In this document: piece after piece, positions 5,614-26,197 of the stretch
How positions within the stretch are numbered: the stretch's first letter is position 1
How the letters are laid out: the number at the start of each line of letters is the position of its first letter
NCBI RefSeq assembly: GCF_008843165.1
Contig: NZ_CP044427.1
Coordinates: forward strand, 1,364,001-1,428,000
DNA length: 64,000 nucleotides
DNA from: Ornithinimicrobium pratense
GTDB taxonomy: Bacteria; Actinomycetota; Actinomycetes; Actinomycetales; Dermatophilaceae
Direction: 5' to 3'
Program-made: the position numbers and the translations under genes
Notes under the pieces: generated by a model
What the model was told of the DNA's origin: nothing
The model's input: the letters and a program-made list of their open reading frames with translations, nothing else
The model's database searches: none

Positions 5614-5616
5614 GGC

Positions 5617-6237
5617 GTGCATTCTCCCGCATCCCGCATTGTCGACTCCGCAGACGTCTCGCCCGACGCCCAGATCGGCGACGGCAGCTCAGTCTGGCAC
5701 CTCGCCCAGGTCCGTGAGGGCGCCGTCGTGGGCGCCGGGTGCGTCATCGGCCGCGGCGCCTACATCGGCACCGGTGTCCAGCTCGGTGACCACTGCAAGG
5801 TGCAGAACTACGCGCTGGTCTACGAACCGGCGCGGCTGGGCCGGGGCGTGTTCATCGGCCCGGCGGCCGTGCTGACCAACGACACCTTCCCCCGGGCGGT
5901 GAACGCCGACGGCACGCTCAAGAGCGCCGACGACTGGCAGCCGGTCGGGGTGACCATCGGGGACGGCGCCTCGATCGGGGCCCGGGCGGTCTGCGTCGCC
6001 CCGGTGACGATCGGCGAGTGGGCCACCGTCGCCGCCGGCGCCGTCGTCACCAAGGACGTGCCTGCCCACGCCCTGGTCGCTGGCGTGCCCGCACGCCGGA
6101 TCGCCTGGGTCGGACACGCCGGCCGTCCCCTCGACGCGACCGGCACGCCGGGCGAGTGGCGCTGCCCGGCCGACGGCGCCACCTACCGCGAGCGCAACGG
6201 GTCGCTGGCCCGGGTGGACGAGGAGACCGGGCGATGA
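5617..6237 (+). CDS. WbpD/WlbB-like N-acetyltransferase (left-handed beta helix)
   Basis: A 206-aa acyltransferase built from hexapeptide repeats over about residues 10-165 (e.g. IGDGSSVWHLAQVREGAVVG, then KVQNYALVYEPARLG). This pattern matches WbpD/WlbB enzymes, which acetylate the 3-amino group of UDP-2-acetamido-3-amino-2,3-dideoxy-glucuronate. The N-terminus begins HSPASRIVDSADVSPDAQIG. A short extra C-terminal tail of about 30 residues follows the helix. The stop overlaps the ATG of the aminotransferase (ATGA), and the oxidoreductase follows, so the trio forms one operon for a diamino-uronic sugar. The GTG start at 5617 lacks a clear ribosome site and may be leaderless. Codon usage is normal here but changes abruptly in the next gene. 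Confidence 0.85.
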   Translation: MHSPASRIVDSADVSPDAQIGDGSSVWHLAQVREGAVVGAGCVIGRGAYIGTGVQLGDHCKVQNYALVYEPARLGRGVFIGPAAVLTNDTFPRAVNADGTLKSADDWQPVGVTIGDGASIGARAVCVAPVTIGEWATVAAGAVVTKDVPAHALVAGVPARRIAWVGHAGRPLDATGTPGEWRCPADGATYRERNGSLARVDEETGR

Positions 6238-7358
6238 GTGAGCTGTCGATGATTCCTGCTGCGAGGCCTGTGATTGGTGAGGAGGAGCGGGTGGCGGTGG
6301 ATCGGGTGTTGCGTTCGGGGATGGTGGCGCAGGGGCCGGAGGTGGCGGCGTTTGAGGTGGAGTTCGCGGCCGAGTTGGTGGGTGGGCGGACGTGTGTGGC
6401 GGTGAACTCGGGGACCTCGGGGTTGCATTTGGGGTTGTTGGCGGCGGGGGTGGGGCCGGGGGATGAGGTGATTGTGCCGTCCTTCACGTTCGCGGCGACG
6501 GCGAACTCGGTGGCGTTGACGGGCGCGACGCCGGTGTTTGCGGATATCAGTGCGGACACGTTCAACCTGGATCCGGTGTCGGTGGCTGCGGCGGTGAGTG
6601 AGCGGACGGTGGCGGTGATGCCGGTGCACCTGTATGGGCATCCGGCGGACATGGATGGCCTGGCGCAGGTGGCGCAGGAGCATGGTCTGGCGGTGTTTGA
6701 GGACGCGGCGCAGGCGCATGGTGCGACGTGTGGTGGGCGTCCGGTGGGTAGTTTTGGTGCGTTTGGGATGTTCAGCTTGTATCCGACGAAGAACATGACC
6801 TCGGGTGAGGGTGGGATGGTCTCGTGCGCGGATGAGGAGATCGCGCGGGGGGTGCGGTTGTTGCGTAACCAGGGGATGGAGGCGCAGTACGCGAACGAGG
6901 TGGTGGGGTTGAACAATCGGATGACGGATATTCATGCGGCGATCGGGCGGGTGCAGCTGGGCAAGGTGGGGGCGTGGACGGCGCAGCGGCGGGCGAACGC
7001 GGCGTTCTTGGATGAGCACCTGGGCCAGGTGGCGGGGGTGGTGACGCCGGCGGTGCGGGAAGGGTGCACGCACGTGTATCACCAGTACACGATCCGGGTT
7101 GATGGTGCCTCGGGTGCGCAGCGGGATGAGGTGGTGGCTGCGTTGCGGGCCGAGCACAAGGTGGGGTGTGGGGTGTACTACCCGACGCCGAACCATGAGC
7201 TGGTGTCGTTGGCGCGGTTCGCGCCGGCTTGGGAGTTGCCGGTCACGGCGCGGGCGGCGGCTGAGGTGATCAGCCTGCCGGTGCATCCCTCGTTGAGCGA
7301 GGGTGACCTTGAGCGGGTCGTGGAGGCTGTGGCTGCTGTGGTGGGGGCGGGCGCGTGA
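6234..7358 (+). CDS. DegT/DnrJ/EryC1/StrS aminotransferase (WbpE-like)
   Basis: A 374-aa PLP-dependent sugar aminotransferase. Visible features: NSGTSGLHLGLLA (58-70), the Asp of FEDAAQAHGA (157) that contacts PLP, and the Schiff-base lysine in SLYPTKNMTSGEGG (K186). In this context it should transfer an amino group to C3 of a UDP-2-acetamido-3-keto-glucuronate made by the next gene's product. The ATG at 6234 overlaps the upstream stop and follows GAGGAG; the open frame back to 6018 is shadow. Third codon positions are strongly G/T-biased (TTG, GTG, GGG, GGT), unlike the C-biased upstream gene. This suggests a different history for this gene and the first part of the next. Confidence 0.93.
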   Translation: MSELSMIPAARPVIGEEERVAVDRVLRSGMVAQGPEVAAFEVEFAAELVGGRTCVAVNSGTSGLHLGLLAAGVGPGDEVIVPSFTFAATANSVALTGATPVFADISADTFNLDPVSVAAAVSERTVAVMPVHLYGHPADMDGLAQVAQEHGLAVFEDAAQAHGATCGGRPVGSFGAFGMFSLYPTKNMTSGEGGMVSCADEEIARGVRLLRNQGMEAQYANEVVGLNNRMTDIHAAIGRVQLGKVGAWTAQRRANAAFLDEHLGQVAGVVTPAVREGCTHVYHQYTIRVDGASGAQRDEVVAALRAEHKVGCGVYYPTPNHELVSLARFAPAWELPVTARAAAEVISLPVHPSLSEGDLERVVEAVAAVVGAGA

Positions 7359-8359
7359 GTTTCGTGGTGCAGGGTCGGCCGATCCGGATGGGGCTGATCG
7401 GGTTGGGGTCGATGGGTCGGCATCATGCGCGGGTGATCCGTGAGGTGGAGGGGATGGAGTTGGTGGCGGTGGCTGACCCGGTGGGGGATCGGCATGGGGT
7501 GGCTGGGGGGTTGGAGGTGTTGGCGGATGTGGAGGCGTTGATCGGGGCGGGGATTGATGCGGCGATGGTGGCGGTGCCGACGTATCTGCATGAGGAGGTG
7601 GCGTTGGCGTTGGCGGGTGCGGGGGTGCACGCGTTGGTGGAGAAGCCGATCGCGGCGACGGCTGAGTCGGGTGAGCGGGTGGCGGCGGCGTTCGCGGCGG
7701 CGGGGTTGTTGGGGGCGGTGGGGTATGTGGAGCGGTGCAACCCGGCGTTGTTGGAGATGCGGGCCCGGATCGAGGGTGGTGAGTTGGGGGAGGTGTTCCA
7801 GATCACGACCTCGCGGCAGGGGCCGTTCCCCTCGCGGATCGCGGACGTGGGGGTGGTCAAGGACCTGGCTACGCATGATGTGGATCTGACGGCGTGGATC
7901 GCGCAGTCGCGGTATGCGATGGTCGCTGGGCAGATCGCGCACCGTACGGGCCGGGAGCATGAGGACATGGTGGTGGTGACCGGGCGGTTGGAGAACGAGA
8001 TCATCGTCTCGCACACGGTGAACTGGCTCTCGCCGCGTAAGGTCCGTGAGACGGTCGCGACGGGGGAGAAGGGCGCGTTCATCGCGAACACGCTCACCGG
8101 GGACCTGACGTTCGTGGCCAACGGGGACGTGCGCAGTGAGTGGGAGCGTTCTAGCCACTTCCGGGGCGTGTCCGAGGGTGACTCGATCCGCTACGCCCTG
8201 GCCCGGCGTGAGCCGTTGCGGGTGGAGCAGGAGAACTTCCGCGACGCCCTGTGGGGACGCCCGGCCCAGATCGTCTCAATGGAGGAAGGCGTACACACCC
8301 TGCACGTCGTCGAAGCCATCCTCGAGTCCGCCGCGGCTGGGCGCACCATCGCCCTGTGA
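7355..8359 (+). CDS. Gfo/Idh/MocA oxidoreductase (WbpB/WlbA-like sugar 3-dehydrogenase)
   Basis: A 334-aa NAD-dependent oxidoreductase. The Rossmann motif IGLGSMGRHHARVI starts near residue 15, and the catalytic-domain signature VEKPIA is at 95-100. The middle region KDLATHDVDL (about 169-178) carries the His-Asp pair expected near the active site. With the flanking acetyltransferase and aminotransferase it fits UDP-GlcNAcA 3-dehydrogenase (WbpB/WlbA). The GTG start overlaps the upstream TGA by 4 nt. Most of the gene shares the unusual G/T-rich third positions of the aminotransferase gene. From about 8100 to the stop the codons return to the local C-rich pattern, so the compositional boundary lies inside the gene. 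Confidence 0.9.
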   Translation: MSFVVQGRPIRMGLIGLGSMGRHHARVIREVEGMELVAVADPVGDRHGVAGGLEVLADVEALIGAGIDAAMVAVPTYLHEEVALALAGAGVHALVEKPIAATAESGERVAAAFAAAGLLGAVGYVERCNPALLEMRARIEGGELGEVFQITTSRQGPFPSRIADVGVVKDLATHDVDLTAWIAQSRYAMVAGQIAHRTGREHEDMVVVTGRLENEIIVSHTVNWLSPRKVRETVATGEKGAFIANTLTGDLTFVANGDVRSEWERSSHFRGVSEGDSIRYALARREPLRVEQENFRDALWGRPAQIVSMEEGVHTLHVVEAILESAAAGRTIAL

Positions 8360-8375
8360 GGGTGCGGGGTATGTC

Positions 8376-9674
8376 GTGAGGGGCGCGCGCCGCCGTCGCG
8401 TCGTGCTGGCGACCCGGATCTTCGCTCCCGAGGCTGCGGCCGCTACCTTCCGGCTGGGGGCGCTGGTCCGCGCGCTGGCCGGGCACGCGGAGGTTCGGGT
8501 GCTGACCACCATGGCGCCACCGCACCTGCGGGGACCGCAGACGCAGGACGACGGCCCGGTGCGCGTGTCCCGGTGGCCGGTGCTGCGGGACGCGACCGGC
8601 TACGTGCGTGGCTACCTGCCCTACCTCTCCTTCGACCTGCCTCTGGCCCTGCGGCTGCTCACCGGGCCGCGCCCCGACGTTGTCGTGGTCGAGCCGCCGC
8701 CGACGACCGGCGCGGTGACCCGGACCGCGCTGGCCCTGCGTGCCCTCCCGGGGCGGCTCGCCGGTCATCCGCGGATCCCCTATGTCTACTACGCCGCCGA
8801 CGTCTGGTCCGACGCCACCGCTTCGATGGGTGCGCCGGCCATCGTGGTGGCGGCGATGCGCGCGGTCGAGAGCTACGCCCTGCGCGGCGCCAGGGACGTC
8901 ATCGCGGTCTCCGACGGGGTTGCCGACCGCGTCCGGTCCCTGCTCGGGGGCACCACTCGGGTCGGGGTCAGCGTGGTCCCCAACGGGATCGATACCGATG
9001 TCTTCACCTCCGACGGGGAGCGGCACCCGCAGGCCCCAGAGACGCCATACCTGGTGTATGCGGGCACCGCCTCGGAGTGGCAGGGCGCCGAGGTCTTCGC
9101 CGAAGCGATGCGCGAGGTGGTGGCGGCCGAGCCCACAGCCCGGTTGGTCTTCCTGGGCCAGGGTTCGAGCTGGCCCCTGCTCCAGCGGTTGCGTGCCGAG
9201 CTGCCGGACGGCGCGATCGAGCTGCGGCCGCTCGTGCCGCCGGCCGAGGCCGCCGCGTGGCTGCGGGGAGCTGCTGTGGCCCTGGTCAGCGTCCGGCCGG
9301 GGGTCGGCTACGACTTCGCCTACCCGACCAAGGTCATCGCCGCGCTGGCCACCGGTGCCCCGGTTGTTTTCGCCGGTCCCGGCCCGGCGGCCGCCGACGT
9401 GCGGGCATACGGGCTGGGGGACGCGGTGGACCACGACGTCCCGGCGGTGGCGGCGGCGATGCTGGCGGCCGTGCGGAGCGCGGCGCCGGGGGCCGGTCGC
9501 TGGTCGCTGCGGGAGCGGGAGCGGCGTGTCGCCTGGGTGCGGCAGCACCGCAGCCTCAGCGCGACCGGTGAGGCCGCCGCGGCCGTGGTGCTGGACGCAG
9601 CCGCTGAACCCGGGTCACCGCTCCCAAAGTTGCCAGAAGTGGTGCACCGGCCCCGGCCCCTGGCCCACGGATAG
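8376..9674 (+). CDS. family 4 glycosyltransferase
   Basis: About 432 aa, GT-B fold retaining glycosyltransferase of the GT4/WbuB type. The N-terminal domain starts VVLATRIFAPEAAAATFRLG and contains YYAADVWSDATASMG. The C-terminal domain has VVPNGIDTDVF, YAGTASEWQGAEVF and the donor-site region SVRPGVGYDFAYPTKVIAAL. It probably adds one sugar to a lipid-linked glycan, with donor unknown. The start is uncertain: GTG at 8376 (17 nt after the oxidoreductase stop) is chosen, and GTG at 8403 is possible. The frame open back to 8136 is shadow. The last 60 nt overlap the convergent thiD gene. Confidence 0.88.
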   Translation: MRGARRRRVVLATRIFAPEAAAATFRLGALVRALAGHAEVRVLTTMAPPHLRGPQTQDDGPVRVSRWPVLRDATGYVRGYLPYLSFDLPLALRLLTGPRPDVVVVEPPPTTGAVTRTALALRALPGRLAGHPRIPYVYYAADVWSDATASMGAPAIVVAAMRAVESYALRGARDVIAVSDGVADRVRSLLGGTTRVGVSVVPNGIDTDVFTSDGERHPQAPETPYLVYAGTASEWQGAEVFAEAMREVVAAEPTARLVFLGQGSSWPLLQRLRAELPDGAIELRPLVPPAEAAAWLRGAAVALVSVRPGVGYDFAYPTKVIAALATGAPVVFAGPGPAAADVRAYGLGDAVDHDVPAVAAAMLAAVRSAAPGAGRWSLRERERRVAWVRQHRSLSATGEAAAAVVLDAAAEPGSPLPKLPEVVHRPRPLAHG

Positions 9675-10442
9675 CTCGTGGCCGTGCTCTAGGGCACCGA
9701 CGAGCCAGGAGCGGGCGTCGGTGACGGCCTCCAGCCAGCTGTCCCGACGCGGCCGCAGGGCGGTGATGGCGGAGGACAACGAGCACCCTGTCCCGTGGGT
9801 GTGCGGGGTCGCGACCCGCGGCCCGCCCAGCTCGTGGGCCCCGAGGGTGTCGACCAGCAGGTCCAGGACGTGCTCGCCCGAGGCGTGGCCTCCCTTGAGC
9901 AACACCCGCGGGCAGCCCAGGTCCAGGAGTGCGCGGGCCTCGTCCATCATCTGGGCCGGGCCCTCGGCCATGTCCTGCGGGTCCCGTCCCAGGAGCACGG
10001 CGGCCTCGGGCAGGTTGGGCGTGATGAGGTCGGCGTGGCTGGCCAGTGCGCGGAGCTCCTCCACGGCGTCCTCGTCCAGCAACCGGGACCCGGCGGTGGA
10101 GACCATGACGGGGTCGAGGACCAGGTTGGGCAGGAGGCCCTCCTGCGCCAGCTCGTGCACGGCCCGGACCACGTCGGCGCTGCCGAGCATCCCGACCTTG
10201 ACCGCTGCGAGCGTGACGTCGGCGACCAGTGTCTCGACCTGCTCCCGGATGAACCGTGGGGGCACGGCGTGCACGCCGGTCACGCCCTGGGTGCTCTGGG
10301 CGGTGAGCGCGGTCAGGACGGCGCAGCCGTGGGCACCTAGGGCGCCGAAGGTCTTCAGGTCGGCCTGGATGCCGGCCCCGCCGGAGGGGTCGGACCCGGC
10401 GACGGACAGGACGTTGGGCACGCGGCCCGGCTCGGTGCTCAC
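9615..10442 (-). CDS. thiD: hydroxymethylpyrimidine/phosphomethylpyrimidine kinase
   Basis: A 275-aa ribokinase-fold kinase phosphorylating HMP and HMP-P for thiamine phosphate synthesis. It shows SVAGSDPSGGAGIQADLKTF (from about residue 13), LDPVMVSTAGSRLL in the middle, and the anion-hole motif THGTGCSLSSAI near the C-terminus. The GTG start at 10442 overlaps the thiE stop (GTGA), making it the last gene of the thiM-thiE-thiD operon. The longer frame to 10640 is antisense-like and ignored. Its 3' end overlaps the convergent GT4 gene by 60 nt. Confidence 0.95.
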   Translation of the reverse strand: MSTEPGRVPNVLSVAGSDPSGGAGIQADLKTFGALGAHGCAVLTALTAQSTQGVTGVHAVPPRFIREQVETLVADVTLAAVKVGMLGSADVVRAVHELAQEGLLPNLVLDPVMVSTAGSRLLDEDAVEELRALASHADLITPNLPEAAVLLGRDPQDMAEGPAQMMDEARALLDLGCPRVLLKGGHASGEHVLDLLVDTLGAHELGGPRVATPHTHGTGCSLSSAITALRPRRDSWLEAVTDARSWLVGALEHGHELSVGQGPGPVHHFWQLWER

Positions 10443-11128
10443 GAGGGGACCGGGTGCGCGTCCCAGAGGCTGCGCAGCTCGCGGGACGCGGTCTCGGGGT
10501 CCGGCGCGGCGCAGACCGCGCTCACGACGGCGATGCCGCCCAGCGCGCTGCCCCGCAGTCGGCCGGCGACGGCGATGTCGATCCCGCCGATCGCCACCGA
10601 TGGCAGGGCCGCCGCGGCGGCGAGGTCGGCGAGACTGCATACCTTGTCAGGACCCAGGGGGGCGGCATGGTCCGGCTTGGTCGCGGTGGCCCGGACTGGA
10701 CCGAGCCCGAGGTAGTCCACCGTCCCCGGCGGCAGGGCCGCCGCGGCCCGCACCTCCTCGGCCGTGGTGCAGGACAGGCCGAGGTAGGCGCTGCCGCCCA
10801 GCTGCTCGCGGGCCGCGAGCGGGTCGAGGTCGTCCTGGCCCACGTGCGCCCCGTCGGCGCCGATCTCGCCGACCAGGTGCACCCGATCGTTGATGATGAG
10901 CGGGACCCCGCTGTCCCGCAGGCAGACCTGCACCATTCGGCCCAGCGCGACGAACTCGTCGTCGCTGGCGTCCGGGTCACGCAGCTGGACCACGGTCGCC
11001 CCTCCGGCGACCGCGGCCCGGATCGTGGAGATCAGCCCGTGCGGTGCGGTCATCACGGTGTCGGTGACTAGGTACAGACGCAGGTCGAGCGGCCGCGGGG
11101 CGGGGCGGGACTGCACGCCGAGCGTCAT
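10439..11128 (-). CDS. thiE: thiamine phosphate synthase
   Basis: A 229-aa TIM-barrel enzyme joining HMP-PP and THZ-P to thiamine phosphate. Recognisable: GATVVQLRDPDASDDEF (pyrophosphate site, about residues 41-57), NDRVHLVGEIGADGAHVGQ, GLSCTTAEE and DYLGLGPVRATATK. The ATG at 11128 overlaps the thiM stop by 4 nt and the thiD start overlaps its own stop, so the three genes are translationally coupled. The much longer frame upstream is a shadow of thiM. Confidence 0.95.
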   Translation of the reverse strand: MTLGVQSRPAPRPLDLRLYLVTDTVMTAPHGLISTIRAAVAGGATVVQLRDPDASDDEFVALGRMVQVCLRDSGVPLIINDRVHLVGEIGADGAHVGQDDLDPLAAREQLGGSAYLGLSCTTAEEVRAAAALPPGTVDYLGLGPVRATATKPDHAAPLGPDKVCSLADLAAAAALPSVAIGGIDIAVAGRLRGSALGGIAVVSAVCAAPDPETASRELRSLWDAHPVPS

Positions 11129-11952: not shown

Positions 11953-11957
11953 CAGGA

Positions 11958-12036
11958 CGTTCCCTTCGCTAGTGCGAGCTAGATCAGGTTCGACGGGTCT
12001 GTTCTCAGCCATCCGGTGGATGGCACCCCGCGTCAC
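11958..12036 (-). promoter_or_regulatory. TPP (thi-box) riboswitch
   Basis: Read on the minus strand the leader has GCGGGGTGCC, then GCTGAGA, ACCCGTCGAACCTGATCTAG and AGCGAAGGGA in the order and spacing of the TPP aptamer. Its 3' helix strand contains the Shine-Dalgarno of thiM, suggesting translational control. No separate terminator stem is seen between aptamer and ATG. Confidence 0.93.
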
Positions 12037-15900: not shown

Positions 15901-17333
15901 GCGCCCAGCTCACCGGTCCCGGCGGTCAGGCGCCACGGATCGCGCTCCTCGTCTTCCGGGACGCCGACACCGACTCGCGGGTGCTGCGCAGCGCGGCCAC
16001 CCTCCAGGAGGCAGGTGCGGAGGTGCTGGTGATCGGGCTGGCCCCGACCCGCTCCGGGCTGGAGCCCGGCCCAGCCGTCGTCGGCGGGGTGCCCCTGCAC
16101 CGCACCATGGACCTCGACCTGGTCCGTACCTTCGGCACCGCGGCCAGGGTCTGGCGTCGACTGCGGGGCCGCGACCCTGTGACCGGGGCCACCTCGTCCG
16201 CAGCGGAGCGACCGGACTCGAGCGGCACCGCGGCCAGCGGCACCGCACCATCTCAGGCCTTCGCGGATCCGCCGCAGGCCGGGTCCCGGCTCCCCCTCTC
16301 CTGGCGTAAGGTCTACCAGCGAGGCTTCCGCACCGCACGGTTGGTGCGTTACTGGGCAGGAGCCCTGGTCACCGCTCGCCGGTTCGGGGCCGACGTGGTC
16401 CACGCCAACGACGGGAACACCCTGGCGCCCGCGCTCCTGCTGCGGGTCCTGCAAGGCACGCGGATCGTGTACGACTCCCACGAGCTGTGGCTGCACCGCA
16501 ACGTCCGGCCCCGGTTGATTGCCCCGCTGGTCGAGGCCGTGATCGAGCGGGCTGGTGTCCGCTGGGCAGACGCCGTCCTCACCGTCTCGCCGTCGATCGT
16601 CCGGTGGCTTCAGCGGCACTACCGGCTAGCGGAGCCACCGCTGCTGGTGCGTAACGTCCCGCTCTGGCCGGGAGCACTGCCCGACCCGGCCCGGGGAAGG
16701 CTGCGGGAGCTGGCCGGACTGAGCCCCCGCGACAAGGTGATCTCCTACTGCGGGGGTGTCACGCGCGGGCGTGGCCTGGAGGAGACCATCGACGCGCTCG
16801 CGATGTTGCCCTCGGACGTCCATCTGGTGATGCTCGGCTTCGGCAGCGGGGACTACGTGCGGGGTCTGCTGGCGCGGGCGGCCGCGGCCGGGCTGACTGA
16901 CCGGGTGCACCTCGTCGGGCCGGTGCCCAGTGCGGAGGTCCCCCAGAGCCTGGCCGACGCCGACCTGGCCATCGTCTACGTCCGTCCGATCGTGCTCTCC
17001 TACACCTACTCCCTGCCCAACAAACTCTTCGAGTCGATCCACGCCGGTCTGCCCATCGTGGCCGCGGACCTGCCGGACGTCGCTGCCCTGGTGGAGGAGC
17101 ACGGGGTCGGCACCGTCTTCGCCGTGCCGGAGGGAGCGGTCCAGGAGGACGGCGACCAGCTGGAGGCCGCAGACGACCCCGCGCGCCTGGCCGCGGCCCT
17201 GGCGCAGGTGCTGGCCGACCCGGAGCCCTACCGACGCCATACCCAGGCGTTGGCGCCGCTGCTCGACTGGCGACACGAGGCCGAGCACCTCATCGAGGGC
17301 CACGCCCGTGCCGTGGCAAGATGCGGGACGTGA
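15897..17333 (+). CDS. family 4 glycosyltransferase
   Basis: A 478-aa GT-B glycosyltransferase. The N-domain reads IALLVFRDADTDSRVLRSAA and contains VHANDGNTLAPALLL and IVYDSHELWLHRN. A low-complexity Ser/Ala/Pro-rich insertion at about residues 95-130 probably forms a flexible loop. The C-domain has VISYCGGVTRGRGLEETIDA, MLGFGSGDYV and SYTYSLPNKLFESIHAGLPI, with the PNK..E donor-site motif of GT4. The GTG start overlaps the exporter stop, so expression is coupled. It is probably one step of glycan assembly on the lipid carrier before export. Confidence 0.9.
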   Translation: MSAQLTGPGGQAPRIALLVFRDADTDSRVLRSAATLQEAGAEVLVIGLAPTRSGLEPGPAVVGGVPLHRTMDLDLVRTFGTAARVWRRLRGRDPVTGATSSAAERPDSSGTAASGTAPSQAFADPPQAGSRLPLSWRKVYQRGFRTARLVRYWAGALVTARRFGADVVHANDGNTLAPALLLRVLQGTRIVYDSHELWLHRNVRPRLIAPLVEAVIERAGVRWADAVLTVSPSIVRWLQRHYRLAEPPLLVRNVPLWPGALPDPARGRLRELAGLSPRDKVISYCGGVTRGRGLEETIDALAMLPSDVHLVMLGFGSGDYVRGLLARAAAAGLTDRVHLVGPVPSAEVPQSLADADLAIVYVRPIVLSYTYSLPNKLFESIHAGLPIVAADLPDVAALVEEHGVGTVFAVPEGAVQEDGDQLEAADDPARLAAALAQVLADPEPYRRHTQALAPLLDWRHEAEHLIEGHARAVARCGT

Positions 17334-18463
17334 ACGACACCCGTCCCAGCCTGCTGATCATCTCCTACTCCCGGCTGTTCCGGGACGCCCGCGTGCTGCG
17401 GCAGATCAGGCTGTTCCGAGACGACTACGCCGTGACCACCGTCGGTTATGGACCCGCGCCAGAAGGCGTGGTCGCCCACCACCAGGTCCCGGACGAGATT
17501 ATCTACTGGCACGTCGACCGGAAGCTGGTCGTGGCCCGGATCTACCAGCGTGCCTTTGACACCGCGCCCATCACGCGATGGGCTCGGGAGCAGCTCGTCG
17601 GGCAGGAGTACGACGTCATCCTGGCCAACGACCTGCAGCCCGTGCCGGTCGCGATCGAGATGCGGCCGCGCGGAGGCGTGCACGTCGACCTGCACGAGTA
17701 CGTCACCCGTCAGAAGGAGGAGGTGTGGCGCTTCCGCACCTTCCTGGCGCCGTACTACGGCTACCTCATCAAGAAGTGGGTGCGGCGCGCCAACTCGGTG
17801 ACCACGGTGGGGTTCAAGCTGGCCGAGCAGTACGAGGCAGAGTTCGGGGTGCCGTGCGGCGTCGTCTTCAACGCCCCGGAGCGGCGTGAGCTGACTCCCG
17901 GTGAGGTGGCAGACCCGGTGCGGCTGGTGCACGCGGGGGGCGCGACCCCGGGCCGCCTGGAGATGATGCTGGCGGCCGTCGAGCAGGTGCAGGGGGGAGC
18001 TACCCTCGACCTTTTCCTGGTGGACTCCGGGAGCGGGTATGCGGGGTCTGTGCGCGAGCGGTATGTCGACCATCCCCGGATCCACGTGCATGACGCCGTG
18101 CCGACCAGCGAGCTGGTGAACACCCTGCACCGTTACGACGTGGGCGTCCATATCCTGGCGCCGGTGTCGTTCAACCACCGCTACGCCATGCCCAACAAGA
18201 TCTTCGACTACGTGCAGGCCCGGCTCGGGGTGCTCATCGGGCCCAGCCCGGAGATGGCGGCGCTGGTGCGTGAGCACAGCGTGGGCTGGGTGAGCCAGGG
18301 CTTCACCGCTGCCGACGTGGCCCGCACCATCGACGGGCTGACCCGCGACGACGTGGCCCGGGCCAAGGGGGCCAGCGACGTGGCGGCCCGGGTGCTGTGC
18401 GCCGAGGAGCAGGTCGCCGGGTGGGCCGAACCGGTGCGCGCCCTGGCGCGAAAAGCTGGCTGA
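17321..18463 (+). CDS. family 4 glycosyltransferase
   Basis: A 380-aa GT-B glycosyltransferase related to its upstream neighbour: LLIISYSRLFRDARVLRQIR at the N-terminus, VILANDLQPVPVAIE, VHVDLHEYVTRQKEE, and a C-terminal donor region NHRYAMPNKIFDYVQARLGV. The order (surface motif, acceptor loop, PNK..DY) matches GT4. The ATG at 17321 overlaps the previous gene by 13 nt; GTG at 17333 is an alternative. The next 191 nt hold no convincing gene. The two transferases and the exporter form one operon. Confidence 0.88.
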   Translation: MRDVNDTRPSLLIISYSRLFRDARVLRQIRLFRDDYAVTTVGYGPAPEGVVAHHQVPDEIIYWHVDRKLVVARIYQRAFDTAPITRWAREQLVGQEYDVILANDLQPVPVAIEMRPRGGVHVDLHEYVTRQKEEVWRFRTFLAPYYGYLIKKWVRRANSVTTVGFKLAEQYEAEFGVPCGVVFNAPERRELTPGEVADPVRLVHAGGATPGRLEMMLAAVEQVQGGATLDLFLVDSGSGYAGSVRERYVDHPRIHVHDAVPTSELVNTLHRYDVGVHILAPVSFNHRYAMPNKIFDYVQARLGVLIGPSPEMAALVREHSVGWVSQGFTAADVARTIDGLTRDDVARAKGASDVAARVLCAEEQVAGWAEPVRALARKAG

Positions 18464-19197: not shown

Positions 19198-19800
19198 TCA
19201 GACCGGTCGCAGCGGCTGGTGCGGGGCGTCGGGGAGGTGGATCGAGACCGGGTGGCCGGGACGGACCTCGCCACCGTGCTCGACCACGGCCATGACCCCG
19301 GCCTTGCGGACGACCCGGATGCTGCCTGCGTCCGCGGAGCCGGTGGAGGGGGCAGGTTCCTCGCGCGGGATCCCGTCCTCCCTGGTGAGGACCACCTTGA
19401 GCAGGCCCGACCGGAACTCGTTGATCTGGGCGCACGGGTTGCGCAGCCCGGTCAGCCGGAGGACGGCATCGCCGATGCGCAGCAGGGTCCCCGTGGGCAG
19501 AGCGAGAAGATCCACTCCGGAGGTGGTGATGTTCTCGCCGAGATCACCGGGGGACAGCTCGTAGCCCATCTCGCGTGCTTGCACAAAGAGCTCGGCATGG
19601 ATGAGGTGCACCTGGCGCAGGTTGGGCTGGTTCGGATCGCGCCGCACCCGTGAGCGGTGCTGGACGAGGGTCCCGGCGTGGGCGTCGCCGACGATGCCGA
19701 GACCGGCGACGAGCTGGATCTGCTCGACCGGCACCTTGCTGAAGCGGTGCAGGCGGTCTCGGCTCACTGCCACGACGTGTGGGCTCGACAGGTCAGCCAT
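19198..19800 (-). CDS. MOSC domain protein
   Basis: A 200-aa stand-alone MOSC (molybdenum cofactor sulfurase C-terminal) domain. It shows GLGIVGDAHAGT near residue 32, LSPGDLGENITTSGVDLLAL near 82, and LTGLRNPCAQINEF with the conserved cysteine near 125. MOSC domains handle sulfur transfer to metal cofactors or detoxify N-hydroxylated compounds (YiiM-like). The start is the ATG at 19800, with GGAG seven bases upstream; an in-frame ATG at 19812 lacks one. It is followed downstream by a convergent SRPBCC gene. Confidence 0.85.
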   Translation of the reverse strand: MADLSSPHVVAVSRDRLHRFSKVPVEQIQLVAGLGIVGDAHAGTLVQHRSRVRRDPNQPNLRQVHLIHAELFVQAREMGYELSPGDLGENITTSGVDLLALPTGTLLRIGDAVLRLTGLRNPCAQINEFRSGLLKVVLTREDGIPREEPAPSTGSADAGSIRVVRKAGVMAVVEHGGEVRPGHPVSIHLPDAPHQPLRPV

Positions 19801-19848
19801 GTGTCGCTCCATTTCTGTGTTTCATGGTGGTCGTGCGCGTCCGACGGG

Positions 19849-20430: not shown

Positions 20431-20438
20431 GGCAGGTC

Positions 20439-21509
20439 CTAGCTGCCGAGGAGCGCGTCGAGGACGGCGGTGGCGGCGTGGCCGTCGCCGTAGGGGGTGG
20501 CGTCGGTAGCCGCGGGCTCGGGGCGCGAGGCAGCGCGGGCGATGTCGTCGGCGCTGGCGGTGCGGGGGTCGACGAGCGCGTTCCAGCCCAGTTCGACGGT
20601 CTCGACCCACTCGGTCTCGCTGCGCACGGTGGTGCACGGGGTGCGCAGTGCGAAGGCCTCCTTCTGCAGGCCGCCGGAGTCGGTGACCACGCCTCGGGCG
20701 GCGTCGACAGCGCCGATCAGAGCGGGGTAGGGCAGGGGGTCGCGCACGGTCAGCGAGCCACCTTCCAGACTCAGGCCCTGAGCCTGGGCACGGGCCCGCA
20801 GCCGGGGGTGGGCCAGCAGCACGACGGGGTGGTCGACCCGCTGCAGGCCGTGGACGATCCCGGCGAGCCGGGCGGGGTCGTCGGTGTTCTCGGCCCGGTG
20901 GATCGTGGCCACGGAGAAGTTGCCCCGCTCCAGGCCCAGGTCGGTCAGGACACCCGCGGTGTCGGTGAGCCCGGAGCGGACCTTCATCAGCACGTCCACC
21001 ATGACGTCACCGACGAGGATCGAGCGTGCGGTCAGGCCCTCGGCGGCCAGGTGGTCCATCGCCACCTGGGTCGGGGCCAGCAGCAGGTCGGCGGCGTGGT
21101 CGGTGAGCACCCGGTTGTGCTCCTCGGGCATGGCCCGGTTGAAGGAGCGCAGCCCGGCCTCCAGGTGCGCCACCGGCAGGTGCAGCTTCACCGCGGACAG
21201 TGCCCCGGCCAGGGTGGAGTTCGTGTCGCCATACACCAGGACCCAGTCGGGGCGGTGCTCGGTGAGCACCTCGTCCATGCGGGCCAGGATCGCGCCGGTC
21301 TGGGCGCCGTGGCCGGCCGAGCCCACCTCCAGGTGCACGTCCGGGTCAGGGATCCCCAGGTCGGCGAAGAAGACGTCGGAGAGCATCGGGTCGTAGTGCT
21401 GCCCGGTGTGCACGATGACGTGCTCGACCTCCCGTCGGGCGCACTCGTCGGCGATCGGTGCGAGCTTGACGAACTGGGGGCGGGCGCCGACGACGGACAG
21501 GATCTTCAT
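20439..21509 (-). CDS. non-hydrolysing UDP-N-acetylglucosamine 2-epimerase (WecB/WbpI type)
   Basis: A 356-aa GT-B-fold epimerase. It begins MKILSVVGARPQFVKLAPI and contains HTGQHYDPMLSDVFF, YGDTNSTLAGAL, HLEAGLRSFNRAMPEEHNR and GVVTDSGGLQKEA, all standard for the family. Near residue 295 it reads RSETEWVET rather than the RxxTERPE of WecB/MnaA. That motif is closer to enzymes acting on diacetamido-uronic substrates (WbpI type); this is my reading, not a computed result. It could convert the gluco sugar made by the WbpA/B/E/D-like enzymes to the manno form. The ATG at 21509 is followed directly by a strong family N-terminus. Confidence 0.9.
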   Translation of the reverse strand: MKILSVVGARPQFVKLAPIADECARREVEHVIVHTGQHYDPMLSDVFFADLGIPDPDVHLEVGSAGHGAQTGAILARMDEVLTEHRPDWVLVYGDTNSTLAGALSAVKLHLPVAHLEAGLRSFNRAMPEEHNRVLTDHAADLLLAPTQVAMDHLAAEGLTARSILVGDVMVDVLMKVRSGLTDTAGVLTDLGLERGNFSVATIHRAENTDDPARLAGIVHGLQRVDHPVVLLAHPRLRARAQAQGLSLEGGSLTVRDPLPYPALIGAVDAARGVVTDSGGLQKEAFALRTPCTTVRSETEWVETVELGWNALVDPRTASADDIARAASRPEPAATDATPYGDGHAATAVLDALLGS

Positions 21510-21564
21510 GGCCCCAGCCTAGGCAGGCACGAGGTATGCCGTGGCGCGCGGCTACGGTGGGGGC

Positions 21565-22605
21565 GTGCGCGTGCTGGTGGTGACGACCTGGTTCCCGACC
21601 CCGTCGTCGCCGACCACCGGGATCTTCGTGGCCCGGGACGTAGCCGCGATCGCGACCCGGCACCAGGTGGTGGTGCTGCACCTGGTGGCGCCGGGTCTGG
21701 CCGATGGTGTCCACGACGCCGGCAGCGACGTGAACACCGACGCCGGCACGGCGGGGCCGGACGGCGTGCACGTCGAGCGCCTGGTCATGGACCTGCGCCG
21801 CCCCGACCACATCCTGCGGGCGGCGCGGCGTATGCGCGCCCTCGCTGCCGGTGCGGATGTCGTGCACTCCATGGCGATCTCGGCGTTGCTGCCGTTCGCG
21901 GTGCGCCACCCGGGGCGAGGTTGGGTGCACACCGAGCACTGGTCGGGCCTCGGGGCACCGGAGACGCTGTCGACGCTGCTGCGGGCAGCGCGCCTGGCGG
22001 TGCGGCCGCTGTTGGCCCGGCCGGACGTCGTGGTGGTCGTCGGCGAAGGTCTCGCGGAGTCGGTCCGGGCGCTGCGCCCGGGGCCGGTTGAGGTCGTGCC
22101 CAACATCGTCACCGCCCCGACGACCCTGACGCCTCGCCGCGACGCTGGCGTCTCACTGGGTCGGCGAGGGCCCCTGGAACTGGTCGCTGTCGGTGGGCTG
22201 ATTCCGCGCAAGGACCCGCTGACTGCGGTCGCGGCGACCGCCGAGCTGCGCAGCCGGGGGATCGATGCCGGACTGACCTGGGTGGGTGCCGGACCGCTGG
22301 AGGCGCAGGTGCGCGATCACGCGGGGCAACTGGCGGTGCCGCTGCGGCTCACCGGGTCGCTGCCCCCGCCCAGGTGGAGGTCGTGGTGTCGCACGCCGAC
22401 ATCTTCCTGCTGCCCACCCACGCGGAGACCTTCTGCCTGGCGGCGGCCGAGGCGCTGGCGGCCGGTCGACCGGTCGTTGTCGGCGACAGTGGTGGTCCCA
22501 GCGCCTTCGTCGCCCCTCCGCGGGGTGCTCTGGTGCCGCCCCGGGCCGGGGCGGCCGTCTGGGCGGACGCGGTCGAACAGGTGTGGAGCCAGGCTGCCGG
22601 GCTGA
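21565..22605 (+). CDS. family 4 glycosyltransferase, N-terminal part (frameshifted)
   Basis: Starts at GTG 21565 with VRVLVVTTWFPTPSSPTTG and continues as a GT4 N-domain: GIFVARDVAAI, VHSMAISALLPFAVRH, GWVHTEHWSGLGAPETL, VVPNIVTAP and VAVGGLIPRKDPLTAVAA. The family reading stops at about 22365 (LTGSLPP). After that this frame turns into Arg/Ser-rich nonsense up to 22605, while the GT4 donor domain continues in the frame of the next entry. One base lost in the C5 run at 22363-22367 explains this. It is either a sequencing error or a real mutation. An upstream in-frame GTG (21541) is possible. Confidence 0.65.
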   Translation: MRVLVVTTWFPTPSSPTTGIFVARDVAAIATRHQVVVLHLVAPGLADGVHDAGSDVNTDAGTAGPDGVHVERLVMDLRRPDHILRAARRMRALAAGADVVHSMAISALLPFAVRHPGRGWVHTEHWSGLGAPETLSTLLRAARLAVRPLLARPDVVVVVGEGLAESVRALRPGPVEVVPNIVTAPTTLTPRRDAGVSLGRRGPLELVAVGGLIPRKDPLTAVAATAELRSRGIDAGLTWVGAGPLEAQVRDHAGQLAVPLRLTGSLPPPRWRSWCRTPTSSCCPPTRRPSAWRRPRRWRPVDRSLSATVVVPAPSSPLRGVLWCRPGPGRPSGRTRSNRCGARLPG

Positions 22606-23834
22606 CGGCGGAGCAGATCGCGCAGGACGTCCGGGTGCGCTACAGCCCCACCCGGTATGTCGATCGCCTGGCCGCGATCTACGCCCCCCTCGGCCAGGCG
22701 GAGCCGGGGAGCGACTCATCGTCGACCACGGGTGGGCACCCGGTGGTTGATCTGGTCATCGCCGTCCACTCCACGCAGCGCCGGGTCGAGCGGGCGGTGC
22801 GCTCGGTGCTCGACGGCTCACCCGGGGTGGACGTGCGCGTGACCCTGGTCGCGCACAACATCGGGGCCGAACAGGTTCGCGCGGTGCTCAGCGAGCAGTC
22901 CCGCGCCGACGAACGGGTGCGGGTGCTGGAGCTGGCTGACGGCATACCGAGCCCGAGCGGGCCGTTCAACGCCGGCCTGGACGCGGCGACCGCGCCGTGG
23001 GCGGCGATCATGGGCTCCGACGACATGCTGGCCCCGGGCGCGCTCGCCGGATGGCTCGAGGCGGTGGCCGGGATGAACCCGGCGGATCCGGTCGTGGTGA
23101 TCCCCCCGTTGCGGCTCGCCGGTCGTACGGTGCCCACCCCGCAGCGTCGGCCGGGGCGCACCGGGCGACACCGCCGGCTGGACCTGGTGGCGGACAGGCT
23201 CAGCTACCGCTCGGCGCCTCTGGGCTTGCTCTCCCGCGGTGCCTTGGCCCTGCCCGGTGCCCGGCTGATGCCGCAGGTCCGGGTCGGGGGAGACGTGCCG
23301 ATGGTCACCGCGCTCTGGGCGCAGGCGCACGTGGTCTACGCCGCGGGGGCACCGGCATACCTGATCCAGGAGGACGCGCCTGACCGGGTGACCTACGAAC
23401 AGCGCCCGATCACCGAGCAGCTCGCCAGCATCGACGCCCTCTGGGGGACGCCATGGGTCATCGCCCTGACGCCCCGCCAGCGCCGATCGGTGGGCACCAA
23501 GGTGCTGCGCATCCACATCTTCGGGGCGATCCTGACCCGCCCGGACCCGCAGTGGTGGACGCCCGAGGAGCGGGTCGAGCTGGCCCGGGTGACCCGGCGG
23601 GTGCTGGCCGAGGCGCCCGGCTGCGCCGACCCGCTGAGCCTGGCCGACGGCGACGTGCTGCGCGCGGTGCTCGACGTCGGCACCCCCGCGGCGCAGCTGA
23701 TCGCTCGGGCCCACGCCCGACGTTGGCACGGCAGCCCGCGCACACTGCTGCCCTCGTCCTGGCGGCACGTCCTGCACCCGGAGGCGCCGGTCCGCTTCAT
23801 GGGCGCGTCGTTGATCGCCGCGCGTGCTCGGTGA
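22374..23834 (+). CDS. GT4 C-terminal domain fused to a GT2-like domain (downstream part of a frameshifted gene)
   Basis: The first part (VVVSHADIFLLPTHAETFCL, then AAAEALAAGRPVVVGDSGGP) is the donor-binding half of a GT4 enzyme whose N-half lies just upstream in another frame. From about residue 120 a second domain begins: VDLVIAVHSTQRRVERAVRS, later MGSDDMLAPGALAGWL, the GT2 pattern with an SDD metal site. Restoring one base near 22365 would give one protein of about 755 aa, a bifunctional GT4-GT2 transferase. The listed start (GTG 22374) is only the first start-like codon in this frame; no ribosome site is seen. Its end overlaps the convergent hydrolase by 38 nt. Confidence 0.7.
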   Translation: MEVVVSHADIFLLPTHAETFCLAAAEALAAGRPVVVGDSGGPSAFVAPPRGALVPPRAGAAVWADAVEQVWSQAAGLTAEQIAQDVRVRYSPTRYVDRLAAIYAPLGQAEPGSDSSSTTGGHPVVDLVIAVHSTQRRVERAVRSVLDGSPGVDVRVTLVAHNIGAEQVRAVLSEQSRADERVRVLELADGIPSPSGPFNAGLDAATAPWAAIMGSDDMLAPGALAGWLEAVAGMNPADPVVVIPPLRLAGRTVPTPQRRPGRTGRHRRLDLVADRLSYRSAPLGLLSRGALALPGARLMPQVRVGGDVPMVTALWAQAHVVYAAGAPAYLIQEDAPDRVTYEQRPITEQLASIDALWGTPWVIALTPRQRRSVGTKVLRIHIFGAILTRPDPQWWTPEERVELARVTRRVLAEAPGCADPLSLADGDVLRAVLDVGTPAAQLIARAHARRWHGSPRTLLPSSWRHVLHPEAPVRFMGASLIAARAR

Positions 23835-24759
23835 CGGTCGTGTCCAACCAGGCCAGCAGCTCAGCCACGACCTCGTCGCGGTTGATCTCGTTGAACACCT
23901 CGTGCCGGGCCCCCGGCCAGACCTTGGTGGCGACCTGGGCCAATCCGGCGGCCCGGTAGAGCTCGGCGACCTCCCGCACTGCGCCAGCACCACCGACCGG
24001 GTCGACCTCCCCGGCTACCAGGTAGACCGGCAGACCCCGTGGCATCCGGTAGACCGTCGACGGCTCACTCACCCAGCGCAGCCCGGTGAGCAGGTCGCGG
24101 TAGAAACCGGCCGTCGCGTGGCCCCCGCAGAGCTCGTCGGCGACGTAGGCGTCCACCTGGGCCTCGTCACGGGAGAGCCAGTCGAAGTCGGTCCGGGCCG
24201 GGCGGAAGGGCCGGTTGTAGGGGCCCAGCGTCAGCGCCTCCATCAGGCGGCTGCGCACCCGCGGTCCCCGCAGCCGACACTCGAGCCGGGCCAGCCGCTC
24301 ACCCAGGAAGCCGGCCAGCCCCGGGTCGCCAGCCGTGCCGGACAACACCAGTGCAGCCAACCGCTCACCGTGGCGTGCTGCGAACGCCCGCGCCAGGAAG
24401 CTGCCCATGCTGTGCCCGAGGAGCACCACCGGCGCACCGGGGTGGCGGCTCTGCGCCTCTTCCACCACCACGAGCAGGTCGTCCACGGCCGCGGCGAAGC
24501 CGTGCTCGTCGCCCAGGTGGGCCAACCCTTCGGGACCGCCCCCACCGACAGTGGTGCGACCGTGGCCGCGATGGTCGGCGGCGGACATGGCATACCCGGC
24601 GCGGCCGAGCTGCTCGGCCAGGTGGGCGTAGCGCGCGGCGTGCTCCACCATCCCGTGGGCCAGCACGACCAACGCCCTGGGCGTGCCGTCGGGCACCCAC
24701 CGGTGCACGTGCAGGACCGTCTCATCGCTCGTGGTCAGGGTGGTGGTGCTCGCGTTCAT
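23797..24759 (-). CDS. alpha/beta hydrolase (lysophospholipase/monoacylglycerol lipase type)
   Basis: A 320-aa serine hydrolase. It has VVLAHGMVEHAARYAHLAEQ (oxyanion HGM region, about residue 33), DHRGHGRT, nucleophile elbow GHSMGS (about 117-122), VAGEVDPVGG (acid) and ARHEVFNE (catalytic His near the C-terminus). This series is typical of bacterial monoacylglycerol lipases. No signal peptide is evident. The ATG at 24759 is chosen because the frame beyond it is antisense to the dehydrogenase gene. It is divergent from that gene with 94 nt between. Confidence 0.88.
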   Translation of the reverse strand: MNASTTTLTTSDETVLHVHRWVPDGTPRALVVLAHGMVEHAARYAHLAEQLGRAGYAMSAADHRGHGRTTVGGGGPEGLAHLGDEHGFAAAVDDLLVVVEEAQSRHPGAPVVLLGHSMGSFLARAFAARHGERLAALVLSGTAGDPGLAGFLGERLARLECRLRGPRVRSRLMEALTLGPYNRPFRPARTDFDWLSRDEAQVDAYVADELCGGHATAGFYRDLLTGLRWVSEPSTVYRMPRGLPVYLVAGEVDPVGGAGAVREVAELYRAAGLAQVATKVWPGARHEVFNEINRDEVVAELLAWLDTTVTEHARRSTTRP

Positions 24760-24853
24760 CTGGTCAGGGTATGTCTGCCAGGGCACGTATCCTGGGCCGG
24801 ACCCCGCCGACCGGAGGGGACTTTCCACCACCGACCAGGACGGACCTGACTGG

Positions 24854-26197
24854 ATGAGGATTGCGGTTGTCGCGTTGGGCAAGATCGGCTTGCCGTTGGC
24901 GGTGCAGTTCGCTGATGCCGACCCCGTGCATGAGGTGGTCGGGGTGGACGTGAACGAGCAGGTGGTGGACCTGGTCAACCAGGGGGTGGAGCCGTTCCCG
25001 GGGGAGGCGCACCTGGGTGAGAAGCTGGCGCAGTTGGTCCCGGCGGGCAGGTTGCGGGCCACGACGGATTATGCGCAGGCGATCCCGGGCGCGGACGTGG
25101 TCGTGCTGGTGGTGCCGTTGTTCGTGGACGAGACCACCGGTCAGCCGGACTTCGGCTGGATGGACTCCGCCACCAAGAGCCTGGCCCAGCACCTGACGCC
25201 CGGCACGCTGGTCTCCTATGAGACGACGCTGCCGGTGGGGACCACCCGGGGTCGGTGGAAGCCGATGATCGAGCAGATCTCCGGGCTCCAAGAGTCGCCC
25301 GCGGCGGGGGAGGACGGTTTCCACCTGGTGTTCTCTCCCGAGCGGGTGCTGACCGGGCGGGTGTTCGCCGACCTGCGGGCCTACCCCAAGCTGGTCGGTG
25401 GCCTCACCCCCGAGGGCACGGCCCGCGCGGTGGAGTTCTACCAGGCGGTCCTGGGCTTTGATGAGCGTGCTGACCTGCCCCGCCCCAACGGGGTGTGGGA
25501 CATGGGCAGCGCGGAGGCGGCGGAGATGGCCAAGCTGGCCGAGACGACCTACCGGGATGTCAACATCGGGCTGGCCAACCAGTTCGCCCGGTTCGCCGAC
25601 ACCGCCGGGATCGACGTGCACAAGGTCATCCAGGCATGCAACTCCCAGCCCTACAGCCACATCCATACCCCCGGCATCGCGGTCGGCGGGCACTGCATCC
25701 CGGTCTACCCCCGGCTCTACCTGTCCACCGACCCCGACGCCACCGTGGTGCGCACCGCCCGCGAGGCCAACGCCACCATGCCGGAGTACGCCGTCTCCCG
25801 CGCCGAGACCGTGCTGGGCTCCCTGCAGGGCCTGAGGGTGGTTGTCCTGGGTGCCTCCTACCGGGGCAGGGTCAAGGAGACCGCCTTCTCCGGAGTGTTC
25901 ACCACCGTCGCGGCCCTGCAGGAGCGCGACGCGCAGGTGCTGGTCCACGACCCCATGTACACCGATGAGGAGCTGGCCGGCTACGGCTGGGACCCCTACC
26001 ACTGGACCCCCGGCACCCCCGGTCAACCCGTTGACGTGGCCATCGTCCAGGCCGACCACCCCGAGTACGCCGACCTGTCCGCCACCGACCTGCCCGGCCT
26101 GCGCCTGCTCCTGGACGGCCGCCGCATCACCGACCCCACCGCCTTCACCGGCATCCCCCGCCTCACCATCGGCGGGGGCGAGACCCCCACCCCATGA
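24854..26197 (+). CDS. nucleotide-sugar 6-dehydrogenase (UDP-GlcNAc/ManNAc dehydrogenase type)
   Basis: A 447-aa NAD-dependent UDP-sugar dehydrogenase making a uronic acid. The Rossmann start MRIAVVALGKIGLPLAVQFA is followed by VVPLFVDETTG, SYETTLPVGTTRGRW, the central-domain FSPERVLTGRV, EMAKLAETTYRDVNIGLANQ and the catalytic loop AVGGHCIPVYP (Cys). It resembles WbpA/WecC-like enzymes, the first step for a UDP-GlcNAcA-derived sugar. The matching 3-dehydrogenase, aminotransferase and acetyltransferase lie at 5617-8359. The first third is G-rich at third codon positions, like wbpE/wbpB, and the rest is C-rich like the region. No strong ribosome site precedes the ATG at 24854. A DUF6541 gene follows after 22 nt. 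Confidence 0.92.
   Translation: MRIAVVALGKIGLPLAVQFADADPVHEVVGVDVNEQVVDLVNQGVEPFPGEAHLGEKLAQLVPAGRLRATTDYAQAIPGADVVVLVVPLFVDETTGQPDFGWMDSATKSLAQHLTPGTLVSYETTLPVGTTRGRWKPMIEQISGLQESPAAGEDGFHLVFSPERVLTGRVFADLRAYPKLVGGLTPEGTARAVEFYQAVLGFDERADLPRPNGVWDMGSAEAAEMAKLAETTYRDVNIGLANQFARFADTAGIDVHKVIQACNSQPYSHIHTPGIAVGGHCIPVYPRLYLSTDPDATVVRTAREANATMPEYAVSRAETVLGSLQGLRVVVLGASYRGRVKETAFSGVFTTVAALQERDAQVLVHDPMYTDEELAGYGWDPYHWTPGTPGQPVDVAIVQADHPEYADLSATDLPGLRLLLDGRRITDPTAFTGIPRLTIGGGETPTP

Follow-up and report, generated by a model that had tools for sequence, protein, structure and literature searches.

A 64,000-nucleotide stretch of the Ornithinimicrobium pratense genome (G000:C1:1364001-1428000, hereafter the window; the genome is 3.54 Mb on one contig) carries genes for glycan synthesis in its left half, including five whose products would together build a uridine diphosphate (UDP)-activated 2,3-diacetamido-hexuronic acid. 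A preliminary description of the window had located these enzymes, assigned them to one pathway and matched them to the WbpD/E/B/A/I steps of Pseudomonas. The five genes are genuine open reading frames (ORFs) lying where that description had put them:

5617..6237, plus strand: UDP-sugar 3-N-acetyltransferase (WbpD/WlbB role); hexapeptide repeats; top PDB match 3mqg, 117.5 bits
6234..7358, plus strand: pyridoxal phosphate-dependent 3-aminotransferase (WbpE role); PF01041, 407 bits; WbpE 3nyu, 221 bits
7355..8359, plus strand: nicotinamide adenine dinucleotide-dependent UDP-sugar 3-dehydrogenase (WbpB/WlbA or GnnA role); PF01408; profile matches to GnnA 7bvj and WlbA 3q2k
20439..21509, minus strand: UDP-GlcNAc3NAcA (UDP-2,3-diacetamido-glucuronic acid) 2-epimerase (WbpI role); top PDB match 8sxv, 350 bits; Trp and Tyr residues
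24854..26197, plus strand: nucleotide-sugar 6-dehydrogenase of the UDP-N-acetylhexosamine (UDP-HexNAc) type (WbpA role); TIGR03026, 278 bits; Cys281 in GGHC

The acetyltransferase and aminotransferase genes, and likewise the aminotransferase and 3-dehydrogenase genes, overlap by 4 bases, end to start, and we therefore read the three as one operon. The 6-dehydrogenase begins at the ATG at 24854, the longer ORF from 24683 being an upstream extension.

Enzyme classes and specificity

The acetyltransferase matched 3mqg, which we take to be Bordetella WlbB, with 117 bits, compared with 75 for the next PDB entry. For the 3-dehydrogenase, the profile matches at the top of the PDB entries listed included GnnA (7bvj, 105 bits) and WlbA (3q2k, 92 bits; both 3q2k and 3q2i are WlbA by title), which places it about equally near GnnA, a UDP-GlcNAc (UDP-N-acetylglucosamine) 3-dehydrogenase, and WlbA, solved with UDP-GlcNAcA. 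Residues E96, K97, P98, D170, H174 and D175 are invariant in an alignment of 24 such sequences.

The 6-dehydrogenase scored 230 bits with the UDP-ManNAc (UDP-N-acetylmannosamine) model and 123 and 89 bits with UDP-glucose models, all equivalogs staying below their cut-offs, and in both PDB and NCBIfam it most resembles UDP-ManNAc(A) dehydrogenases. Cys281, in the motif GGHC, is invariant in 16 sequences; this Cys is the catalytic residue of 6-dehydrogenases. By these resemblances the enzyme is of the UDP-HexNAc rather than the UDP-glucose type.

The clearest specificity marks were found in the 2-epimerase. Its PDB match to a UDP-GlcNAc3NAcA 2-epimerase (8sxv) reached 350 bits, versus 238 and 128 bits for other entries. 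For UDP-GlcNAc3NAcA epimerase, Thoden et al. 2023 (PMC10622841) report Trp307 in place of the Arg of UDP-GlcNAc epimerases, Tyr96 in place of His/Gln and Ala18 in place of Leu/Met; the replaced Arg is the one in contact with the C3 hydroxyl group of UDP-GlcNAc. The window epimerase retains the catalytic residues, the Trp and the Tyr of the Thermus thermophilus HB27 enzyme (8SXV) as described there. Position 301 is Trp and position 93 is Tyr in all 48 distinct close relatives, the window's own included; these sequences were obtained from 56 entries with eight duplicates, came from 30 loci and loci added later, a subset of all the matches to the epimerase, and include some near relatives. Two Arg-type enzymes (L133 and L220) likewise have the Tyr, which makes it a weaker mark than the Trp, the consistent one on sequence comparison.

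The other intact 2-epimerase of the genome (3150748-3151782) has Arg, Gln and Leu at the three positions, as in the UDP-GlcNAc type. Separately from the window, a second glycan locus (G000:C1:3147794-3166934; L115, L116) holds a DegT aminotransferase, an Arg-type 2-epimerase, a WecC above its curated cut-off, and a third 2-epimerase in pieces over several stretches (3164682-3165632); it is probably a separate pathway to UDP-ManNAcA (UDP-N-acetylmannosaminuronic acid).

Co-occurrence and clustering in relatives

Co-occurrence in relatives had been named in the preliminary description as a check on its proposal. Each of the five proteins was searched against 149 genomes from the order, including the present one. 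Close relatives were defined by identity cut-offs of 60% (epimerase), 62% (6-dehydrogenase), 50% (3-dehydrogenase), 59% (aminotransferase) and 64% (acetyltransferase), which were set after viewing the match lists, at the gap in each list. Matches dropped on this basis were aminotransferases at 47% (G098) and 38-43% (others), acetyltransferases at 34-51% (e.g. G010), 3-dehydrogenases at 40% (G079) and 31% (G010), epimerases at 33-48% and 6-dehydrogenases at 31-43%. Partial genes were counted as present for the epimerase in G055 (two pieces) and G126, the aminotransferase in G015 and the 3-dehydrogenase in G030.

Close relatives were found in 42 genomes for the epimerase, 49 for the 6-dehydrogenase, 54 each for the 3-dehydrogenase and the aminotransferase, and 59 for the acetyltransferase. 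All five enzymes occur together in 41 of the 149 genomes, spanning 13 of the 20 families. The three operon enzymes are present in every one of the 49 genomes carrying the 6-dehydrogenase, and the 3-dehydrogenase and aminotransferase coincide in 54/54. Fisher p-values for the ten enzyme pairs ranged from 2.6e-21 to 6e-42, and are indicative only because of kinship among the 149 genomes. Since 41 genomes hold all five and the operon enzymes accompany the 6-dehydrogenase in 49 of 49, we assign the five to one pathway.

The genes are also physically close in many relatives. A single contig holds all five in 34 of the 41 genomes (in the remaining seven they are distributed over several contigs), and in 31 of the 34 they span at most 29 kb; they lie within 5.3 kb in G013 and G119, and the 6-dehydrogenase gene adjoins the operon in G005, G113 and G141. 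With such compact arrangements in relatives, the scatter seen in the window is one arrangement among many: the term 'scattered' used before fits this genome, where the genes extend over 20 kb, and fails as a general trait. A neighbourhood survey that took in 10 kb on either side of 64 named loci, or less where a contig ended sooner, found the aminotransferase adjoining the 3-dehydrogenase in 62 loci, the acetyltransferase near in 55, a glycosyltransferase of family 2 (GT2) no more than 4 kb from the 3-dehydrogenase in 58, a DUF2304 gene no more than 4.5 kb from it in 52, and a glycosyltransferase of family 4 (GT4) no more than 500 bp from it in 18.

Some loci stood out. G119 (L125, L126) carries two copies of the acetyltransferase, aminotransferase, 3-dehydrogenase and epimerase genes: the compact set, together with the 6-dehydrogenase, fits within 5.2 kb, and the second, which starts about 22 kb on, is window-like, with ABC transporter and GT4 genes. 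Two loci with actinobacterial cluster versions are recorded under other taxa, L141 (titled an Acidobacteria metagenome-assembled genome) and L174 (Tissierella sp. Marseille-P2918), their 3-dehydrogenases being 82% and 62% identical to that of the window; L174 resembles Varibaculum loci in arrangement and GC content. These records are possibly mislabelled or contaminated.

Genomes lacking the epimerase or the 6-dehydrogenase

Eight genomes have the other four genes and lack a window-type epimerase. No PF02350 protein was found (E <= 0.001) in six of them, two of which (G014 and G084) are assemblies of 80-500 contigs; the remaining two have one PF02350 protein each, of the Arg type. Because the 6-dehydrogenase is present without a PF02350 epimerase, it appears to be independent of UDP-ManNAc. 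The epimerase is a variable gene in Streptomyces too, where, according to the umbrella toxin resistance study (PMC13274773), S. antibioticus, without utrH (and also without utrE and utrF), makes a GlcNAc3NAcA polymer and S. griseus, with utrH, a ManNAc3NAcA polymer.

These genomes bear on the possibility that the window holds two unrelated pathways, one in which the epimerase and 6-dehydrogenase make UDP-ManNAcA as WecB and WecC do, and another in which the operon makes a 3-amino sugar. The epimerase does exceed the cut-off of the WecB model TIGR00236 (263 against 210 bits), and the resemblance of the 6-dehydrogenase to UDP-ManNAc(A) dehydrogenases would suit such a pair. In contrast, the 6-dehydrogenase is never without the 3-dehydrogenase and aminotransferase in its 49 genomes, it occurs in the six genomes where no PF02350 epimerase was found, the epimerase has Trp instead of Arg, and this genome has its own WecC (574 bits, cut-off 459) and Arg-type epimerase elsewhere. 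We therefore consider two pathways very improbable, and UDP-ManNAcA was rejected as the principal product of the window enzymes on the six PF02350-free genomes, the epimerase Trp and the separate WecC.

Five genomes (G030, G032, G073, G085 and G139) carry operon genes without a close 6-dehydrogenase. Another dehydrogenase lies beside the operon in G032, and G030 is fragmented. G085, G073 and G139 have close relatives of the 3-dehydrogenase and aminotransferase, G085 and G073 also of the acetyltransferase; neither a UDP-HexNAc-type 6-dehydrogenase nor a Trp-type epimerase was found in these three, and all five of their full-length 6-dehydrogenases matched UDP-glucose models best, below cut-offs. 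They may make UDP-GlcNAc3NAc or another 3-amino sugar.

Owing to such genomes, we keep as a serious variant an order of reactions in which UDP-GlcNAc first passes through the 3-dehydrogenase and aminotransferase to give UDP-GlcNAc3NAc, with C6 oxidation following later. This order, which would lead to the same product and so overlaps with the reading preferred below, is suggested by the higher profile score of GnnA (whose partner is GnnB) than of WlbA and by the best curated model for the 3-dehydrogenase, NF040723 (archaeal UDP-GlcNAc 3-dehydrogenase; 200 of the 450 bits of its cut-off). The three genomes whose 6-dehydrogenases match UDP-glucose models best point the same way. We regard this order as less likely than not.

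Neighbouring genes

The rest of the glycan region consists of glycosyltransferase, transporter and membrane protein genes, with thiamine, MOSC and hydrolase genes interspersed:

4540..4911, minus strand: DUF2304 small membrane protein, partner of the GT2; PF10066, E 2.7e-23
4921..5622, minus strand: GT2 glycosyltransferase, divergent from the acetyltransferase gene; PF00535, E 6.4e-21
8376..9674, plus strand: GT4 glycosyltransferase downstream of the operon; PF13692/PF13439
9615-12039, minus strand: thiamine genes; PF08543, PF02581, PF02110
14113..15900, plus strand: ABC half-transporter; PF00005, 112 bits
15897..17333, plus strand: GT4 glycosyltransferase; PF13692, E 7.3e-14
17321..18463, plus strand: probable GT4-like glycosyltransferase; only a sub-threshold PF13692 match (E 0.007); relatives near pathway genes in several loci
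19198-19812, minus strand: MOSC protein
21541..23834, plus strand: split-frame GT4 gene, then a GT2-like gene; from frame analysis and comparison with relatives
within 23797-25062, minus strand: alpha/beta hydrolase of the Hydrolase_4 family
26220..28208, plus strand: DUF6541 polytopic membrane protein, predicted GT-C glycosyltransferase; PF20176, 532 bits

Most of these were recognised in the preliminary description, including the thiamine and MOSC genes, the hydrolase (there a 'lipase') and the DUF6541 protein. Its 'PglK-like' exporter is a loose label: the ABC protein scored 259 bits with MsbA and 232 with PglK, both well below the curated cut-offs. It is likely an exporter of a lipid-linked glycan, and the GT2 at 4921..5622 possibly makes a polyprenyl-phosphate sugar.

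A GT-C fold was predicted for the DUF6541 protein, and in 29 of the 49 genomes that carry the 6-dehydrogenase its gene lies no more than 15 kb from genes of the pathway. Asp139, invariant in 46 DUF6541 sequences, follows a helix at 103-128; it may lie in the first outer loop, where a conserved acidic residue is typical of GT-C enzymes. No paper on DUF6541 was found in the literature searched. As a bolder proposal, DUF6541 proteins might be polyprenol-dependent extracytoplasmic GT-C enzymes that build or anchor diacetamido-uronate polymers in actinobacteria, and the precursor might arise by a GnnA-like route with C3 amination first, gain or loss of the 6-dehydrogenase and 2-epimerase switching the polymer among GlcNAc3NAc, GlcNAc3NAcA and ManNAc3NAcA. 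Taken as a whole, we hold this to be doubtful.

Further features of these genes were observed. The nearest named relatives of the 3-dehydrogenase belong to Ornithinimicrobium and Serinicoccus, with 89% identity to an O. sufpigmenti protein and at most 84% among the 64 named loci. Third codon positions of the aminotransferase and 3-dehydrogenase genes (window 6234-8050) are strongly biased to G (and T): G/(G+C) is 0.83 and 0.71, compared with a mean of 0.46 (sd 0.06, maximum 0.55) in 44 other listed window genes. The bias sets in abruptly where the aminotransferase gene begins and weakens over the length of the 3-dehydrogenase gene; the operon's acetyltransferase gene has a normal value (0.34). 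In 13 of the 19 Ornithinimicrobium/Serinicoccus-like loci measured, the bias is present in weaker form (aminotransferase >0.60), and four loci from Georgenia satyanarayanai and Oceanitalea gave values of 0.56-0.62. In the GT4 gene of 21541-23834, the N- and C-terminal halves are in different frames, changing near 22360, and the C-terminal half shares its frame with the downstream GT2-like gene. In seven relatives both halves are in a single frame, with the GT2-like gene in another frame in the four where it was found; the change is either a genuine frameshift or an assembly error.

Comparison with known systems

Pseudomonas aeruginosa WbpA/B/E/D/I and Bordetella Wlb perform the same five reactions as proposed for the window, and solved relatives of this kind are nearest for the acetyltransferase (3mqg) and second-nearest for the 3-dehydrogenase (WlbA 3q2k). 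They differ in serving the O-antigen or lipopolysaccharide of Gram-negatives, and the window 3-dehydrogenase is as near to GnnA; WbpA was not among the sequences compared. The Wbp names of single enzymes are to be used with caution; for the aminotransferase the match was not specific to WbpE.

Closer in lineage are the utr (umbrella toxin resistance) teichuronic-acid genes of the actinobacterium S. griseus, which, as reported (Cell 2025, PMC13274773), have the same five enzyme roles and a polymer shown by nuclear magnetic resonance to hold ManNAc3NAcA. This comparison was made by reported roles, not sequences, with the S. griseus gene order taken from the gene letters. The window, unlike utr, has an ABC exporter, a DUF6541 protein and genes spread over 20 kb; the scan, which took in part of the window's proteins, found no TarS_linker (UtrC-like), and no search for it was made elsewhere in the window or genome.

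Among 246 genomes of the phylum searched under strict limits, the 6-dehydrogenase was found in 11, the 3-dehydrogenase in 15 and the epimerase in 20, and each of those 11 has the 3-dehydrogenase too. Both dehydrogenases occur in four large genomes of a single genus, Streptomyces-like by size and GC, of which G337 has the epimerase as well; three or more further genomes of the genus (G273, G305 and G326) have neither dehydrogenase. In G337 the genes on the minus strand run aminotransferase, 3-dehydrogenase, GT2 with a TarS linker domain, 6-dehydrogenase, and the plus strand nearby encodes the epimerase and acetyltransferase; utrA, B, C (TarS-like), D, H and J are described with these roles (PMC13274773). 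In two more distant genomes of the phylum, G298 and G266, the acetyltransferase is only 39% alike.

The same sugar is known from another Gram-positive actinobacterium, Cutibacterium acnes, whose matrix and wall polysaccharide contains ManNAc3NAcA (PMC6598116), a likeness that concerns the sugar. No description of this pathway in Ornithinimicrobium and its kin was found in the literature searched.

Proposed pathway and its weighing

Taken together, we consider it highly probable that the five enzymes make UDP-ManNAc3NAcA from UDP-GlcNAc and that the window machinery assembles the sugar into an anionic envelope polymer of the teichuronic-acid kind. UDP-GlcNAc would be oxidised at C6 and then at C3, aminated at C3, N-acetylated and inverted at C2, giving UDP-2,3-diacetamido-2,3-dideoxy-D-mannuronic acid (UDP-ManNAc3NAcA), with the order of the two oxidations inferred. 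The window glycosyltransferases would attach ManNAc3NAcA to a lipid-linked glycan, the ABC protein would move this across the membrane, and the DUF6541 protein would act outside as a GT-C transferase to yield the polymer.

The computed basis comprises the enzyme classes, the epimerase specificity marks, the one-pathway co-occurrence and the GT-C fold prediction. The single pathway first proposed is supported by co-occurrence and clustering, by the epimerase residues and by the published S. griseus utr genes (PMC13274773). Precursor synthesis is strongly indicated, and UDP-ManNAc3NAcA, for an envelope glycan, is the likely product predicted from the genes. Transfer by the GT4 enzymes, export by the ABC protein and supply of lipid-phosphate sugar by GT2-DUF2304 to DUF6541 are plausible from neighbourhood and fold; individual substrates and polymer anchoring we infer. 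The sugar could instead serve protein glycosylation or an S-layer, with DUF6541 as a transferase to protein, which we think unlikely; the teichuronic-acid kind of polymer is suggested by analogy with Streptomyces and C. acnes.

Several observations weigh against the main reading. The sugar is predicted from genes, and the genes form separate units here: the 2-epimerase, on the minus strand, and the 6-dehydrogenase lie apart from the three-gene operon, as the preliminary description held. In the named loci, the flanks include the epimerase in 21 of 64 and the 6-dehydrogenase in 9. By sequence, the aminotransferase shows no special closeness to WbpE, which (3nyu) ranks 7th by score among its PDB matches (221 bits versus 275 for the top), and the 3-dehydrogenase reaches no curated NCBI family cut-off. 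The position of Thermus Ala18 is Leu in 48 of the 48 epimerases, as in UDP-GlcNAc epimerases and unlike the HB27 enzyme (PMC10622841). Of 17 further Trp-type sequences of the phylum, seven have Ala at this position, nine Ser and one, from the Streptomyces-like G337, Leu; since all three occur with the Trp, Ala18, seen in one Thermus structure, is not taken as defining, and Leu18 is a trait of the actinobacterial group. The more distant genomes G298, G266 and G306 showed no close aminotransferase beside the 3-dehydrogenase; it may lie elsewhere in these genomes, the rest of each not having been searched. In G337 an ORF without a Pfam match occupies the utrE position, and the epimerase and acetyltransferase genes are separated by two GT4 genes on the minus strand, unlike the single utrF-J operon.

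Significance

The pathway is a known one, of which the window is a well-supported case: the sugar and similar gene sets had been described in Streptomyces and other bacteria. New here are its breadth in one actinobacterial order, the GT-C prediction for DUF6541 near pathway genes and the question whether C3 amination precedes C6 oxidation. ManNAc3NAcA is termed a rare bacterial sugar, listed for Gram-negative O-antigens, in a 2023 structural paper (PMC10622841), in contrast to the whole-pathway relatives in 41 of 149 genomes of this order. Provided that the enzymes act as proposed, the chemistry of the wall could be predicted from genes, an epimerase indicating ManNAc3NAcA and its absence GlcNAc3NAcA, in line with the reported polymers of S. 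griseus and S. antibioticus (PMC13274773). In Streptomyces such a polymer is the receptor of an umbrella toxin (PMC13274773). The predicted role of DUF6541 would give a testable handle on how the polymer is assembled.

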